From positions 496,001-560,000 of the forward strand of contig BPUI01000002.1 in NCBI GenBank assembly GCA_019973575.1: DNA of 64,000 bases, read 5' to 3'. Below, in pieces: positions 10,184 through 16,538 of the stretch. The DNA comes from Gemmatimonadetes bacterium T265. Lineage in GTDB: Bacteria; Gemmatimonadota; Gemmatimonadetes; Gemmatimonadales; Gemmatimonadaceae. The translations under genes and the position numbers were made by a program. The notes beneath the pieces were generated by a model. The model was not told where the DNA came from, did no database searches, and was given only the letters and a program-made list of their open reading frames with translations. Every line of letters starts with the position of its first letter. Position 1 is the first letter of the stretch.

Positions 10184-11671
10184 TCAGGATCCGAAGAGGT
10201 CCTCGCCCGGACGGCGGCGCTTCTCGCTCACCGCGCGGCCATACTGGCCGCGGTCGTTGCGCGAGATCTTGCGCCGGGCGACGAGCGCCTCGAGCACGAG
10301 CTCGCAGGCCGCCGCGGTCGCGCCCGGGTCGTCGGGGGTCGCGAGGCCGGTGTGGTGCACGATGTCGAGGAGCTGCGGCACCGCGCTGAACGCCTGGGCG
10401 ACGAGCGCGGACGGCTGCTCGTCGTCGACCTGGAGCGCGCCGCCCTCGTCGAACCAGATGATGACCTGGTCGAGGTTGGGCGTGCCGGCGCGGGCCTTGA
10501 GCGTGGCGTCGGCCGCGCGGCGGATCAGCTCGCGCGCGATCGAGGCGCCGCCGACGAGCTCGCCCTCGTACTCCAGCTCGAGCTTGCCGGTGATCGCGGG
10601 GAGCGCGGCGAAGACGTCGGCGATGCGCGGCACGACCTCGGTCTCGCCCGTGCGGACGGCACGTCGCTCGGCGTTGCTCACGACGTTCTCCATCGCCGTG
10701 ATGGGCATGCGCTGCGAGACGCCGGAGCGCTTGTCGATGCGCTTGTCGCCGCGCGCCTCGAAGGCGACGCGCTCGATGACCTCCGAGACGAGCTCGGGGA
10801 GGCGCACCGGGCGCGAAAACTCGTCGCGCGTCTCGCCCGCGCCCTGGCGCGCGGTCCAGGCCTCCTGCTGCGTGATTGCCATCCCGAGCTCGATCTCTTC
10901 GGGGTAGTGGGTCACGATCTCGGAGCCGATGCGGTCCTTGAGCGGGGTGATGATCTTGCCGCGCGCCGTATAGTCCTCGGGGTTGGCGGTGAAGCAGAGG
11001 AGGACGTCGAGCGGGAGGCGGACGGGGTAGCCCTTAATCTGGACGTCCCCTTCCTGCATGATGTTGAACAGGCCGACCTGCACCTTGCCGGCGAGGTCGG
11101 GGAGCTCGTTGAGGGCGAAGATGCCGCGGTTGGCGCGCGGCAGCATGCCGTACTGGATGGTGAGCTCGTCGGAGAGCAGGTGGCCGCCGCGCGCGGCCTT
11201 GATCGGGTCGACGTCGCCGATGATGTCGGCGATCGTCACGTCGGGGGTGGCGAGCTTCTCGACGAAGCGCATGTCGCGGTCGACCCAGGCGATCGGCGCG
11301 TCCTCGCCCTGCTCGGCGATGAGTTGCTTGGCGAACTTGCTGATCGGCCGGAACGGGTCGTCGTTCACCTCGCTCCCGGCGACGACGGGCATCTCGGGGT
11401 CGAGGAGGGTGACGAGGGCGCGCAGGATGCGGCTCTTCGCCTGGCCGCGCAGGCCGAGGAGGATGAAGTTGTGCCGCGAGAGGAGGGCGTTGACGATCTG
11501 CGGCATGACGGTGTCCTCGTAGCCGAGGACGCCCTCGAAGAGCGGGCCGCCGCCGGCGAGGCGGGCGAGCAGGTTGCGGCGCAGTTCGTCCTTGACCGAG
11601 CGCGCGCGGCGTTCGGCGTACCCCGCGGCGCGGAGGGCGCCGAGGGTGGTGGGGAGCGTGGTCGTCGACAC
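10184..11671 (-). CDS. MoxR/magnesium-chelatase-type AAA+ ATPase
   Basis: 495 residues from GTG 11669-11671. The core has a P-loop-like GLRGQAKSRILRAL (Lys-Ser with a variant spacing), the sensor region LLCFTANPEDYTARG, and ANRGIFALNELPDLAG carrying Walker B; this is the ChlI/BchI-like AAA+ arrangement. It is about 150 residues longer than typical MoxR, and the extra sequence is C-terminal and helical. It is the first gene of the operon ATPase - hybrid kinase - vWA protein, and pairing with the vWA protein is expected from the family. Having a sensor kinase between the two partners suggests that remodelling activity is linked to an external signal; this is inference. Confidence 0.88.
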   Translation of the reverse strand: MSTTTLPTTLGALRAAGYAERRARSVKDELRRNLLARLAGGGPLFEGVLGYEDTVMPQIVNALLSRHNFILLGLRGQAKSRILRALVTLLDPEMPVVAGSEVNDDPFRPISKFAKQLIAEQGEDAPIAWVDRDMRFVEKLATPDVTIADIIGDVDPIKAARGGHLLSDELTIQYGMLPRANRGIFALNELPDLAGKVQVGLFNIMQEGDVQIKGYPVRLPLDVLLCFTANPEDYTARGKIITPLKDRIGSEIVTHYPEEIELGMAITQQEAWTARQGAGETRDEFSRPVRLPELVSEVIERVAFEARGDKRIDKRSGVSQRMPITAMENVVSNAERRAVRTGETEVVPRIADVFAALPAITGKLELEYEGELVGGASIARELIRRAADATLKARAGTPNLDQVIIWFDEGGALQVDDEQPSALVAQAFSAVPQLLDIVHHTGLATPDDPGATAAACELVLEALVARRKISRNDRGQYGRAVSEKRRRPGEDLFGS

Positions 11672-11809: not shown

Positions 11810-11924
11810 CTCGACGCCGATCCCGAGTTTGGCGGCCGTCGTTTGCTGATGGCCAGTCGCTCGGAGCGTGGCGTGTTCATCCCCGTACGCGCCCGATACC
11901 CCCGATCCTCCCGAGGAGATCCTG

Positions 11925-12203
11925 ATGAAGCGCTTCGCTCTCGCCGCTGCCGCGGTGGTGCTCGCCGCCTGCTCGACCAAGGAACAGACCCCCGCGACCG
12001 ACACGGCCGCCCCGGCGATGACCCCGGCCCCGGCCGCCGGCACGACGACGACGACCACGACCGACAGCACCGCGATGAAGAGCGGCATGAAGGCGGATAC
12101 GGGCGCGATGAAGGCGGACACGGGCGCGATGAAGATGGGTGACTCGTCCGCGATGAAGAGCAGCACGAAGACGACCACCAAGAGCACCACCAAGACGCCG
12201 TGA
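11925..12203 (+). CDS. Small Thr/Lys/Met-rich lipoprotein with MKADTGA repeats
   Basis: 92 residues. The start is fixed by GAGGAG at 11913-11918, six bases before the ATG. The signal peptide MKRFALAAAAVVLAAC has a perfect lipobox (LAAC), so it is lipid-anchored. The mature part is low-complexity: a run of Thr, tandem MKADTGA units, then a Ser/Thr/Lys tail. It resembles Met-x-Lys-Asp-repeat small exported proteins of unknown function. It has its own consensus promoter and a strong terminator, so it is probably a well-expressed single-gene unit. A structural or metal/anion-binding envelope role is possible but unproven. Confidence 0.8.
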   Translation: MKRFALAAAAVVLAACSTKEQTPATDTAAPAMTPAPAAGTTTTTTTDSTAMKSGMKADTGAMKADTGAMKMGDSSAMKSSTKTTTKSTTKTP

Positions 12204-12318: not shown

Positions 12319-13482
12319 TTAGGCGGGGTCGGCGTGCGGGTGGCCGGGGAACGGGAGCGCGGAAACGGTCACGCCGCGCTCGCCGCCTTCCCATCTGGCC
12401 TGGAGCGTTGCGCCGGGAGGAACCTCGCGGCGCACCATGCCGATCGCGACGCCGCCCAGGCGCGGCGAGATGGCGCTGCTGCGCACGTCGCCGACGATCT
12501 TGCCGCCCTCGTCGGCGAGCTCGGCGCCGGTCGGGATGGCCGGGTCGTCGGGCGGGTAGGCGATGCCGCGGAGGTGGCGGTTGACGTGGCCGCGGAAGTG
12601 GATGCGCGCGACGACTTCCTGCCCCGTGTAGCAGCCCTTCGTGTACGAGATGGCGTGCAGGTCGTCGAGGTTGGCTTCCTGCGGGATCGTCGTCTCGTCG
12701 ATGTCGACGCCCCACTCGGGGTAGCCGGCTTCGATGCGGGCGATCGTGTACGCGTCCTCGTCGCCGACGACCACGCCGGAGACGGCGCTCCGCACGCGCT
12801 CCCAGACCGTCTCGTGCTGGCCCTGGGGGCCGACGAGGAGGAAGCCGTCGACGCCGAGGTCGGGGACGCGCGCGACGAGGAGGCGCGTGTTCTCGACGCT
12901 GATGGTCGCGTGCGCGTAGGTGGGGAGCGCGGCGAGGGCGGCCGGGGGGGCGCCGAAGGCGTCGGCGATCGCGTTGCGCGCGCGCACGCCGTAGATGCCG
13001 AACGCGCGGAGGCGCTCGTGCTCGCGGCGGTAGGGTGCCGACCGCGGGTTGACGAACTTGCGAATCAGGGCGCCCCATCCCTCCGCCGCGCGCGGCGGGA
13101 CGTCGACGACGAGGGTGACGCCGTCGAGCCAGTCGGTGCCGGCCGCGGCTGGGTTAGCTACTTCGCAAACGAAGATGCGGACGTCGGCAACGATGCGGCC
13201 CTTGGCCGTGAGCGCGGCCGCGTAACACCCGAGCCCAGGCGCGAGGCCGGCGACATCGTTCGTGACGAGGCCGGTGACGGTCTCCGCCGCCTTCGGCCCG
13301 CGGAAGGTCCAGAGGTCGCGCGCGCCGTGGTCGACGAGCAGGGCCCCGCTCCGGAGCGCGGCGTACTGCGTTGCAACGTCGCGCTCGGGCTGCGCCTCGG
13401 CCGGGGCGAGCGCGGTTCCGCCGAGCGCGAGACTGCGTGCGGACGAGATCGGGATGACCGCGGGCTCGGACGTGTCGCTCAT
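12319..13482 (-). CDS. ygfZ: Folate-binding YgfZ/GcvT-like protein
   Basis: 387 residues with the aminomethyltransferase (GcvT) fold and the diagnostic YgfZ signature KGCYTGQE (Cys in the K-G-C-Y-x-G-Q-E motif) near residue 280. YgfZ proteins bind tetrahydrofolate and help build or repair certain [4Fe-4S] enzymes such as MiaB. The C-terminal barrel (LGGVAIGMVRREVPPG) is present. The ATG overlaps the TGA of the upstream HAD-like gene (TGATG at 13484-13480), so the two are translated together. Its own stop TAA lies within a GCCTAAC motif copy (plus strand 12318-12324). Confidence 0.92.
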   Translation of the reverse strand: MSDTSEPAVIPISSARSLALGGTALAPAEAQPERDVATQYAALRSGALLVDHGARDLWTFRGPKAAETVTGLVTNDVAGLAPGLGCYAAALTAKGRIVADVRIFVCEVANPAAAGTDWLDGVTLVVDVPPRAAEGWGALIRKFVNPRSAPYRREHERLRAFGIYGVRARNAIADAFGAPPAALAALPTYAHATISVENTRLLVARVPDLGVDGFLLVGPQGQHETVWERVRSAVSGVVVGDEDAYTIARIEAGYPEWGVDIDETTIPQEANLDDLHAISYTKGCYTGQEVVARIHFRGHVNRHLRGIAYPPDDPAIPTGAELADEGGKIVGDVRSSAISPRLGGVAIGMVRREVPPGATLQARWEGGERGVTVSALPFPGHPHADPA

Positions 13483-14180
13483 CAGGGCGGGGTCGACGTA
13501 ATTACGAGGGACGAAGCGCCGAGCGACGACTCGCGATCGATGAGCTCGGCGAGGCGGTCGGGGGTGAGCATGCGCAGTGGAAGATGATCGCCGACGCGCA
13601 CGGCGCGCGCGCCAGCCGCGCGCGCGGCGTCGACGCTGCTGCGGCCGACCACTGCGAGCACTCTAGCCGCGTCGGTCATTCCGGGGCGCGCGAGGCGTGC
13701 GACGGCGCGCGCGAATCGCACGGTCGTGGATGCGAACGCCGGGCCGTCGTCCGCCGCGACGACGAAGCGGACGCTCGCGTCGAGGCCCGCCAGCGCGAGC
13801 ACGCGCTCCGCGTCGACGCGGTGCCACCCCGTCACGATCCCGACGCGCCACCCGACGGCGCACGCCTCGACGAGCGCGCGCGCACCGTCGACCAGCGTCA
13901 CGCCCGCGGCGATGCGCCGCGCGTACTCGCGCTCGGCGCGAAGGGCGACGAGCGCGAGGGCGGTGTCGTCGAGCGCGCCCGCGCCAACGTCGCCCGCACG
14001 GGCGCGCGCGGCGGCGACGGCGCGGGCGAGGTCGTCGAACGACGCGGACGTGTCGAGAACGTCGAGGACCGGGCGCGCGGCGACGCTCTCCGTCGCGAAA
14101 GCTGCGGCGAGCGACTCTGTGCGCGGCACACGCGTGTCGACGAGCACGCCGTCGAGTTCGAAGAGGATCGCCGTCCGCAT
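13482..14180 (-). CDS. HAD-superfamily-like protein lacking catalytic residues
   Basis: 232 residues that align with phosphoglycolate-phosphatase-type HAD proteins: opening LFELDGVLVDT, then GIVTGW and VGRSSVDAARAAGARAVRVGD. The usual nucleophile Asp of FDLDGTL is Glu (codon GAA), the motif III Lys is not found, and the GD of motif IV is GR. Only the second motif I Asp and the motif II Thr remain. So the fold is clear but phosphatase chemistry is unlikely; it may be a regulatory or sugar-phosphate-binding pseudo-enzyme. It is coupled to ygfZ by a one-base stop/start overlap. The frame is intact and codon use is normal, so it is not a decaying gene. Confidence 0.75.
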   Translation of the reverse strand: MRTAILFELDGVLVDTRVPRTESLAAAFATESVAARPVLDVLDTSASFDDLARAVAAARARAGDVGAGALDDTALALVALRAEREYARRIAAGVTLVDGARALVEACAVGWRVGIVTGWHRVDAERVLALAGLDASVRFVVAADDGPAFASTTVRFARAVARLARPGMTDAARVLAVVGRSSVDAARAAGARAVRVGDHLPLRMLTPDRLAELIDRESSLGASSLVITSTPP

Positions 14181-14255: not shown

Positions 14256-14954
14256 TCAGGCCGTCGCGTCCGGGGCGTCGTGCGGGCCGTGGCCGTTCGA
14301 GCGGGCGCGCCCGTGGAGTTCGGCACGGGCCTCGACGTCGGGCACCGCGCGCTCGAGCAGGCGGGCGACGTACGCGGTGCGTTCGGCGGGTTCGGGGGAG
14401 GCGAGGACGCGCTGGCGGGTCGTGAGTTCGAGTTCGACGGCCGCGGCGACGGCGAACGCGACGGCCGCGTCGTCGTCCGGGAGGGGCGCGACCTCGGCGG
14501 CGGGTTCGTCGGCGAGCGCGCGTGCGGCGCCGAGGACGCGGGCGAAGGCCGCGCGGGCGCGGCTGGCGGCGTCCGCGAGGGCGATGGGGTCGCGCACCGC
14601 CTCGTCGCGGAACGGCCGCACTTCGGCCACGTAGTACGGCGTCCCCGCGTCGATGAGGCGATCGACCGCAAACCGCTCGCCCGCGTCGACGAGGACGTTG
14701 CTGCGGCCGTCGCCGAGCGGCACCGCCTCGCGCACGATGGCGTAGCAGCCGACGTAGCCGCGCGGGATCGCACGCTCGTCGTCGCCCGCGCGCAGAACGA
14801 TGCCGAACCGGCCGTCGGCCGCGCGGACGTCGGCGAGCATGGCGCGGTAGCGCGGCTCGAAGATGTGCAGCGGGAGTTGCGTGCCCGGAAAGAGGACGAG
14901 CCCGAGCGGGAAGAGGGGGACGCGCGTCAGCCCGTCGGACCGGCCGCCGGTCAC
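14256..14954 (-). CDS. LON substrate-binding (PUA-like) domain protein
   Basis: The start is the GTG at 14952-14954, whose last two bases belong to the TGA of the response-regulator gene (GTGA overlap). This gives 232 residues beginning VTGGRSDGLTRVPLFPLGLVLFPG. The N-terminal half is the Lon N-terminal domain (LPLHIFEPRYRAML, RGYVGCYAIV); the helical C-terminal half (LTTRQRVLASPEPAERTAYVARLL) matches the family. It has no ATPase or protease domain. Stand-alone proteins of this kind are thought to recognise proteins or peptides, but a function here is not established. Confidence 0.88.
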   Translation of the reverse strand: MTGGRSDGLTRVPLFPLGLVLFPGTQLPLHIFEPRYRAMLADVRAADGRFGIVLRAGDDERAIPRGYVGCYAIVREAVPLGDGRSNVLVDAGERFAVDRLIDAGTPYYVAEVRPFRDEAVRDPIALADAASRARAAFARVLGAARALADEPAAEVAPLPDDDAAVAFAVAAAVELELTTRQRVLASPEPAERTAYVARLLERAVPDVEARAELHGRARSNGHGPHDAPDATA

Positions 14955-15370
14955 GACACCGCGCCGACCATGCGCCCGACCATCGCGCGGAGCTCGGCTA
15001 ACTCGAACGGTTTGTTGAGCACCGGGCACGCCGAGCGGCGGAGGAACTCGGACGCTTCGGACGACACGGAGTCGCCTGTCGAGAGGATCAGCCGGTCGAG
15101 GAGCGCGGGGCGTTGGGCGGCGAGCCGTTCGTAGAGGTCCATGCCCGAGATGTCGGGCATGCGCAGGTCCGAGATGATGACGTCGTAGTGCGGGCCGTTG
15201 TCGGCGAGCAAGATTTCGAGCGCCTGGCTGCCATTTTCCGCCTCGTCGACCGCCCAGCCCTGCCGTTGGAAGAAGCGACGGAGGGCGTGACGGATGACGG
15301 CCTCGTCGTCGACGAGGAGGGCGCGGCGCGGCGCGGCGCGGCGCGTGTCATTCTGCATGGCGTCCTGCAT
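14951..15370 (-). CDS. Single-domain response regulator
   Basis: From ATG 15368-15370 the protein is 139 residues, essentially one receiver domain: ALLVDDEAVIRHALRRFF (acidic pocket), phospho-Asp in VIISDLRMPDISG, Thr in LILSTGD and Lys in VLNKPFEL. There is no output domain, so it probably passes phosphate in a relay or binds a target protein. The frame extends back to a TTG at 15433, but those residues look non-domain. A GCGCG tandem run (about 15326-15342) falls in its N-terminus. It is co-translated with the LON-domain gene. A hybrid kinase lies about 5 kb away, but linkage between them is only a guess. Confidence 0.85.
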   Translation of the reverse strand: MQDAMQNDTRRAAPRRALLVDDEAVIRHALRRFFQRQGWAVDEAENGSQALEILLADNGPHYDVIISDLRMPDISGMDLYERLAAQRPALLDRLILSTGDSVSSEASEFLRRSACPVLNKPFELAELRAMVGRMVGAVS

Positions 15371-15550: not shown

Positions 15551-16456
15551 TCACGCTGCGGTCCAGTAGTCGCTCAGTGCCGGGCCGTCGGCCGATTCGC
15601 GCAGTTTGGCGAAGGCGCGCTCGCGGATTTGCCGGATGCGCTCGCGCGTCACGCCCATGACGTCGCCAATGCGCTCGAGGGTCATCTCTTCCGAGCCGGG
15701 CTCGAGACCGTAGTAGAGGATGAGAATGCGCCGTTCGCGCGGGGTGAGGTAGTGCTGCAGGGCGTGCTCGAGGTGCTCGTGGACCAACCGGTCGCTCAGC
15801 GCGTCCTCGATGGCCGACGCGTCGTCGTCGGCGATGCGTTCGCCGAAGGTGCCGGCCTCGCGGGCGCCGCGGTCGACCGGGGCGTCGAGCGCGATCTCGG
15901 GCGCGGACAGTTGACGGCTCTGGCGGACGGTGTCGGCCGGCTCGCCGAGAAGTTCGCCGAGCTCGTCGTCGGTGGGGTCGCGGCCGAGGCGCTGGGCGAG
16001 GATCGCGTGCGCCCGGCCGGCGCGGATGAGCGCGGTGTTCTGGTTGAGCGGCACGCGCACGGCGCGCGTCTGCTCGGCGAGCGCCTTGAGGACCGCCTGC
16101 CGGACCCACCAGACCGCGTAGGAGATGAACTTGACCCCCTGGTCCGGGTCGAACTTGCGCACCGCCTTGAGGAGCCCCTCGTTGCCGATCGCGACGAGGT
16201 CGGCGAGGTCGAGGCCGCGTCCCTGGTAGCGCTTCACGTACGAGATGACGAAGCGCAGGTTGGCGGTGACGAGGCGTTCGGCCGCGTCGGCGTCGCCGTT
16301 GCGGGCGAGGCGGGCGAGGCGGCGTTCCTCTTCGACAGTCGGGATGAGTGGGAGTCGCTGGATGTCGCTCAGGTACTGGTCGAACGAGGTGCCGCCGGGT
16401 GCTGCGGTGGGGTGGAGCGCGGGGCGGGCGCGGGGTGCGGCGGTCACACGCTGCAT
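15551..16456 (-). CDS. RpoD-family (group 2) sigma factor
   Basis: 301 residues from ATG 16454-16456, chosen because AGAGG sits five bases upstream (plus strand 16462-16466); an in-frame TTG at 16471 is the alternative. It shows region 1.2 (DQYLSDIQRLPLI), region 2 (LVTANLRFVISYVKRYQGRGLDLADLVAIGNEGLLKAVRKFD), region 2.4 (FISYAVWWVRQAV), region 3 and region 4 (TLERIGDVMGVTRERIRQIRERAFAKLRE). It lacks region 1.1 and is short, like RpoS- or HrdB-type alternative sigmas. It probably directs a stress or growth-phase regulon. It has its own promoter (16539-16567). Confidence 0.93.
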   Translation of the reverse strand: MQRVTAAPRARPALHPTAAPGGTSFDQYLSDIQRLPLIPTVEEERRLARLARNGDADAAERLVTANLRFVISYVKRYQGRGLDLADLVAIGNEGLLKAVRKFDPDQGVKFISYAVWWVRQAVLKALAEQTRAVRVPLNQNTALIRAGRAHAILAQRLGRDPTDDELGELLGEPADTVRQSRQLSAPEIALDAPVDRGAREAGTFGERIADDDASAIEDALSDRLVHEHLEHALQHYLTPRERRILILYYGLEPGSEEMTLERIGDVMGVTRERIRQIRERAFAKLRESADGPALSDYWTAA

Positions 16457-16538
16457 GGACACCTCTCGCAAGGGGGCGGCACGCGGGCGAGCGACGCCAG
16501 GGGGCGGGCGGCGCGCTCGGGGGGCCTACGGGAGCGCC

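Follow-up and report, generated by a model that had tools for sequence, protein, structure and literature searches.

In the window, by which we mean the whole 64,000-nucleotide stretch of DNA that was analysed, the minus strand carries a gene for a HAD-fold protein that runs directly into ygfZ (Table 1). Upstream of the HAD gene lie a response regulator gene and a LON-domain gene, instead of the glcF gene (glycolate oxidase Fe-S subunit) found there in relatives, as well as a sigma-70 factor gene. Downstream of ygfZ is a gene for a 495-residue protein with no Pfam match at E 1e-3; an ORF with a similar start sequence also follows ygfZ in the Gemmatimonas locus L244 (6742-8202). A small ORF convergent with ygfZ has a lipoprotein-like start, no Pfam match and a repetitive tail rich in Thr, Lys and Met (MKADTGA repeats).

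Table 1. Features of the HAD-ygfZ locus, in window coordinates.
Feature	Position	Strand	Remark
495-aa protein	10184-11671	-	downstream of ygfZ
Small ORF	11868-12203	+	convergent with ygfZ
ygfZ (CAF17/IBA57-like)	12319-13482	-	387 aa; KGCYTGQE motif intact
TGATG junction	13480-13484	-	HAD stop TGA and ygfZ start ATG, with base 13482 in common
HAD-fold protein, altered catalytic residues	13482-14180	-	ATG start; 232 aa plus stop
R180 codon	13641-13643	-	motif IV VVGRSS, without acidic metal ligand
A150 codon	13731-13733	-	occupies the motif III Lys column
R121 codon	13818-13820	-
T117 codon	13830-13832	-	motif II Ser/Thr, retained
D71 codon	13968-13970	-
R20 codon	14121-14123	-
D10 codon	14151-14153	-	general acid/base position, retained
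E8 codon (GAA)	14157-14159	-	nucleophile position (Asp in canonical HAD enzymes)
LON substrate-binding-domain protein (PF02190), stand-alone	14256-15029	-	at the place of glcF in relatives
Sigma-70 factor	15551-16471	-	similar (by eye) sigma factor upstream of glcD in locus L237

The HAD ORF contains no internal stops, and its GC content by codon position (0.80/0.58/0.88) is similar to that of ygfZ, the LON-type gene and aroB. Sequencing error, a frameshift and a chance ORF were ruled out by the intact frame, this normal codon-position GC and the altered motif I of relatives. The protein matches PF00702 at 31.4 bits (cut-off 26.4), and its AlphaFold2 model, built from an 85-sequence alignment, has a mean pLDDT of 87.3 and superimposes on beta-phosphoglucomutase 8q1d with a Z score of 20.8 and an rmsd of 2.8 over 205 residues, spanning residues 1-219. 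The frame and the fold, the latter as a predicted model, are thus as intact as the first-pass annotation had supposed. Measured against HAD subfamily IA (C1 cap), the window protein has the fold, D10 and T117, and lacks the motif I nucleophile, the motif III Lys and the motif IV acid. Its motif I reads FELDGVLVDT, with Glu (E8) at the nucleophile position and D10 intact, and its motif IV reads VVGRSSVD, with R180 where the VGDSxxD motif carries Asp. The MAFFT alignment sets the Glu-Asp of relatives against V178/gap, so that the motif IV acid is missing under either alignment. The three substitutions first proposed for this gene, nucleophile Asp to Glu, loss of the Lys and motif IV Asp to Arg, were therefore confirmed (E8, A150 and R180).

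As described in parts of PMC11283535, beta-phosphoglucomutase (beta-PGM) uses D8 as nucleophile and D10 as general acid/base, contacts phosphate through K145 and includes E169-S171 in its catalytic Mg site. The window HAD shares the full-length, two-domain C1-cap fold of the subfamily IA proteins beta-PGM (L. lactis) and CbbY (R. sphaeroides), and a search with the HAD family profile hit CbbY 4uat (E 4e-35); in contrast to both, it has a Glu nucleophile and neither the motif III Lys nor the motif IV acid. It scores 26.2 bits against TIGR02009 (beta-phosphoglucomutase family hydrolase), where the cut-off is 153.35. The phosphoglycolate phosphatase Gph (TIGR01449), of the same HAD subfamily, would suit glycolate oxidase neighbours, but the window HAD, at 21.0 bits, falls far below its cut-off of 180 and is without the catalytic residues. 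These residues and curated cut-offs ruled out an ordinary active phosphatase, or phosphoglycolate phosphatase, as an identity for the window protein. Since the nucleophile Asp is missing along with the Lys of motif III and the metal ligand of motif IV, a phospho-aspartyl intermediate would no longer be formed or released, and, judging from the sequence, we infer that the window HAD has no phosphatase turnover.

We then surveyed the relatives. A search of 118 Gemmatimonadaceae genomes (threshold E 1e-3) gave a HAD match in 67, and a profile built from 24 ygfZ-linked HADs, run at E 1e-10 against 201 genomes from the order, found matches, paralogues included, in 175. Some sister-family profile matches contain in-frame stops, which we took as overextension of the profile beyond the HAD stop. 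The HAD-ygfZ set comprised 111 copies once 18 duplicates had been removed together with HADs without ygfZ behind them, taken as paralogues save for L050 and L092, which lie at contig ends. Also dropped before counting were L101 (a DFNG copy truncated by a contig end), L138 (a 300-base stretch), L126 (G032; without a profile match) and L131 (G047, from the Ala-type genus g23), in which the HAD frame meets no stop ahead of ygfZ and continues across that gene in another frame, through either a frameshift or a long overlap. Motif I is readable in 108 of the 111 copies, being missing from L095, L116 and L135, which are truncated at contig ends. Gemmatimonadaceae contributed 75 copies from 20 genera, and two sister families 36.

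Across the three families, the full canonical catalytic set was found in none of the 108 readable copies. In Gemmatimonadaceae, the nucleophile position holds Glu in 52, Ala in 18 and Asp in 4 of 74 readable copies, and is thus Glu or Ala in 70/74. The motif III Lys is present in 42/75 and the motif IV Glu-Asp in 34/75; 32 of the 74 readable copies have both, all of them with a Glu nucleophile, and 32 have neither. The sister families keep the nucleophile Asp (34/34), the Lys (36/36), the Glu-Asp (36/36) and, invariably, the Ser, and carry Asn at the acid/base position (34/34). In their loci, L062-L096, D-x-N-G is strict (34/34 readable) with the remaining catalytic residues intact, making these proteins natural equivalents of D10N. 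Copies with Asp (DFDD), either kept or regained, come from genus g20 and a relative (L028, L029, L058 and L237); the first three lack motif IV as well as the Lys of motif III, and the rest of their group has Ala or Glu. HAD matches from outside the order had a canonical DxDG motif I in 20 of the 20 fetched, and ygfZ was absent from the stretches fetched around these matches. A single-genome oddity was ruled out by the altered orthologues in relatives. The earlier proposal of a conserved pseudo-enzyme thus holds for the conservation, for the catalytic alteration and for a nucleophile change that is nearly family-wide, with no orthologue found to have kept all catalytic residues. The same losses do not recur throughout: Lys and Glu-Asp are often retained within the family, and the sister families are of the DxN type with everything else intact.

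The partner gene encodes an ordinary member of the YgfZ/IBA57 family (CAF17-like, TIGR03317), with the KGCYTGQE signature and a score of 89.2 bits (cut-off 49). ygfZ is the next gene after HAD, on the same strand, in all 29 first-fetched loci (own locus excluded), and 79 of 106 unique pairs allow a stop/start overlap of 4 nt. On the same strand upstream of HAD, glcF is found in 94 of the 108 HAD-ygfZ loci, its match mostly ending no more than about 165 nt from the HAD start, with the best-matching segment up to 0.9 kb away in some; the GlcF assignment scores 290.6 bits with NF008434, below the cut-off of 333 and well above other families. The coupling of HAD to ygfZ suggested by the first-pass annotation hence extends, as genomic coupling, over the family and the order, but the conserved neighbourhood is wider than that pair. 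Its usual form is a glcD-glcE-glcF-HAD-ygfZ operon, seen in Gemmatimonadales only; the reading frames of locus L237 (624-5975) run sigma factor, glcD, glcE (named from position only), glcF, HAD and ygfZ, and this glcD has partners 68-77% identical in relatives. The presence of glcDEF in Gemmatimonadota is reported in a passage of PMC10581226. In sister genera, reading of the sequence places an OmpA-like ORF immediately before HAD and glcF farther upstream, and in 10 loci with at least 1.4 kb of upstream sequence and no glcF match there, HAD and ygfZ are still paired. ygfZ closes the glcDEF operon in most Gemmatimonadales loci read, with or without HAD. We also chose 30 family genomes whose HAD match was weak or lacking. 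Every one of the 30 carries glcF upstream of ygfZ; in 27 the two adjoin, their matches separated by -49 to 295 nt, and a diverged VAVDG-type HAD sits between them in the other three. The Fe-S protein GlcF is a candidate client of YgfZ.

The window departs from this arrangement. A LON-domain gene beside HAD was not found in 29 other loci, and the sigma factor, similar by eye between the window and L237, points to the same chromosomal slot. In the genome that holds the window, we found no glcF at E 1e-20 (best weak match 27%) and no close glcD (best glcD-like match 36% identity). With glcDEF absent and HAD-ygfZ present, the pair has outlasted glcDEF. Beyond the order, neither HAD nor glcF was found within the stored flank upstream of ygfZ in any of 52 loci outside Gemmatimonadota (our own count, of 80 named, with L291 labelled only 'bacterium') or in any of the 19 ygfZ loci that 24 genomes from the phylum's other orders and classes yielded. 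The window locus differs from both sets in its upstream HAD, and a widespread HAD-ygfZ pair was thereby ruled out. Our literature searches found no report joining ygfZ with glcF and nothing on a haloacid dehalogenase pseudoenzyme and its nucleophile; among papers on YgfZ and glycolate, or on haloacid dehalogenase and pseudoenzyme, none was by its title on the HAD-ygfZ subject.

Genera g16 and g17 fall together with the window (support 100) in a tree of YgfZ from 132 loci. Mapped on this tree, changes number at least eight for HAD presence, eight each for the Lys and motif IV and 13 for the nucleophile state (absence scored as a state), counts that are blind to gain versus loss and come from a quick method that leaves 40 of 129 inner branches open. 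In the HAD tree, Gemmatimonadaceae and sister-family copies stand together against 29 canonical HADs with a support of only 84, and the single origin that we propose for them draws mostly on the shared locus and on profile rank. The branch of the window HAD is long, at 1.4 changes per column, which would fit relaxed constraint. A history can be sketched in which a canonical HAD was recruited between glcF and ygfZ, after which the acid/base residue would have become Asn in one branch and the nucleophile Glu in the other, with further losses later.

We estimated dN/dS by the Nei-Gojobori method for 14 HAD pairs hand-picked from 258; GC-rich codon use makes the values rough, and they apply to the group of relatives, not to the window gene, whose genus had no close relative in the set surveyed. 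The ratio was 0.15 for E-type copies that keep Lys and Glu-Asp, 0.20 for E-type copies with losses, 0.18 for the Ala-type and 0.20 for the DxN-type, and was about equal between the two halves of the protein. For YgfZ, it ranged from 0.06 to 0.29 (17 hand-picked pairs, comprising 13 of the 14 HAD pairs and four others). Some more distant within-genus HAD pairs, many changes having accumulated between them, had higher ratios, up to 0.82 among the 45 listed. By these sequence comparisons, HAD copies without catalytic residues are under purifying selection (about 0.18), as are the other copies (0.15-0.20). In Gemmatimonadaceae, R20 and D71 are each found in 74/74 copies, R121 in 74/75 and T16 in 72/74, and all four positions are near-invariant also in copies without any catalytic residue, the Ala-type included; at position 20, CbbY and 34 of 35 sister-family copies carry His. 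This pattern of residues looks less like decay than like the replacement of one functional site by another. The model of a Gemmatimonas Ala-type protein has a pLDDT of 92.4, and a structure search with it returned HAD fold matches.

These observations bear on whether the HAD protein matters at all. The gene might be a decaying or leader ORF, selection keeping just an upstream frame that feeds ribosomes to ygfZ via translational coupling. The tight stop/start overlaps would suit this, as would the complete loss of HAD in several lineages (seen as changes of HAD state on the YgfZ tree and in the 27 of 30 picked genomes whose glcF and ygfZ adjoin), the repeated loss of Lys and motif IV and the faster divergence of HAD than of YgfZ over long distances (40% versus 63% between the window and L003). 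Nevertheless, we think it unlikely: dN/dS stays at 0.15-0.20 in every class and in both halves, so that the amino-acid sequence, not the frame alone, is under selection even in dead copies, while R20, D71 and R121 are near-invariant and dead copies have confident predicted folds. The protein might instead be an active enzyme with unusual chemistry, using Glu as the nucleophile or handling an activated substrate without one. Such an enzyme would account for the family members that retain both Lys and Glu-Asp, all with a Glu nucleophile, and for the sister families, which differ by D10N alone while keeping D8, Ser, Lys and Glu-Asp, a state that would make little sense if the pocket did not work. 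HAD phosphatases with an Asp-to-Glu mutation, however, are as a rule nearly inactive, 18 of the 74 readable family copies have an Ala nucleophile under selection that is no weaker, and the window protein also lacks the Lys and the metal ligand, making continued catalysis a distinctly improbable explanation. The 32/74 copies that combine Lys with Glu-Asp could still have a metal site and perhaps some residual chemistry, which counts against reading those relatives as pseudo-enzymes.

A third possibility is that the HAD protein acts as a ligand-binding sensor without a partner protein, sensing or buffering a (bis)phosphorylated metabolite from the glycolate pathway, its link to ygfZ reflecting only shared regulation. 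The best solved relative by sequence is CbbY, whose structures include a D10N mutant with bound xylulose bisphosphate, and the DxN sister proteins are the natural counterparts of beta-PGM D10N, a variant that, in the relevant passages of PMC11283535, binds bisphosphates without proton transfer. Seen in this way, with the DxN form equivalent to beta-PGM D10N, binding without turnover may have come first. The frequent glcF neighbour agrees with a sensor, but the window genome has HAD-ygfZ without glcDEF, and its protein is missing the pocket residues Lys and Glu-Asp; we consider a stand-alone sensor very unlikely.

We hold it to be probable, albeit with modest confidence, that the window HAD is a pseudo-enzyme of beta-phosphoglucomutase/CbbY ancestry, kept as a YgfZ-linked binding or regulatory partner. 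Catalytically dead phosphatase folds are likewise kept for binding and regulation in STYX, MK-STYX and the myotubularin-related pseudophosphatases, although these are eukaryotic protein or lipid phosphatase folds and, unlike the window HAD, neither HAD nor bacterial. For the window HAD, we infer a binding role with YgfZ or its clients as the partner. The HAD protein would be made in step with YgfZ; R20, R121 and T117 would bind an anionic ligand or else keep the cap permanently closed, E8 could possibly mimic a phosphorylated Asp, and the cap face would contact either YgfZ itself or one of its clients, GlcF for example, the HAD partner tuning YgfZ-dependent Fe-S assembly to metabolite state. 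The ancestral setting was probably maturation of the glycolate oxidase Fe-S subunit (glcDEF-HAD-ygfZ), and the window lineage has lost glcDEF and retained the HAD-ygfZ pair. Operon neighbours need not interact, and the partner role is weakened by the HAD-poor genomes in which glcF abuts ygfZ (27/30), where YgfZ can work without HAD.

We also offer, as speculation that we think unlikely to be right as it stands, that the protein is a HAD-fold adaptor dedicated to bacterial YgfZ/IBA57, in which phosphatase chemistry has been replaced by permanent ligand or phospho-mimic signalling that ties glycolate/phosphosugar status to Fe-S cluster delivery. Were this true, delivery would be directed first to GlcF and, where glcDEF has been lost, to other YgfZ clients, and the replacement would have run through an acid/base change from Asp to Asn in the sister families and, in Gemmatimonadaceae, a nucleophile change from Asp to either Glu or Ala.

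The precise role of YgfZ/IBA57 is called uncharacterized in a passage of PMC10002905; how these proteins act in Fe-S cluster work is unsettled, and the HAD link bears on that question. To the original reading of this gene, our analysis adds that the losses are graded, that selection is undiminished, that other residues have become invariant in their stead and that a glycolate oxidase operon was the likely ancestral setting. A ygfZ-linked gene with a stepwise dismantled catalytic site points to a binding function, for which glcF suggests a candidate Fe-S client, and the DxN, ExE/D and AxD series in one operon slot offers a natural experiment in the passage from HAD enzyme to pseudo-enzyme with selection unrelaxed.
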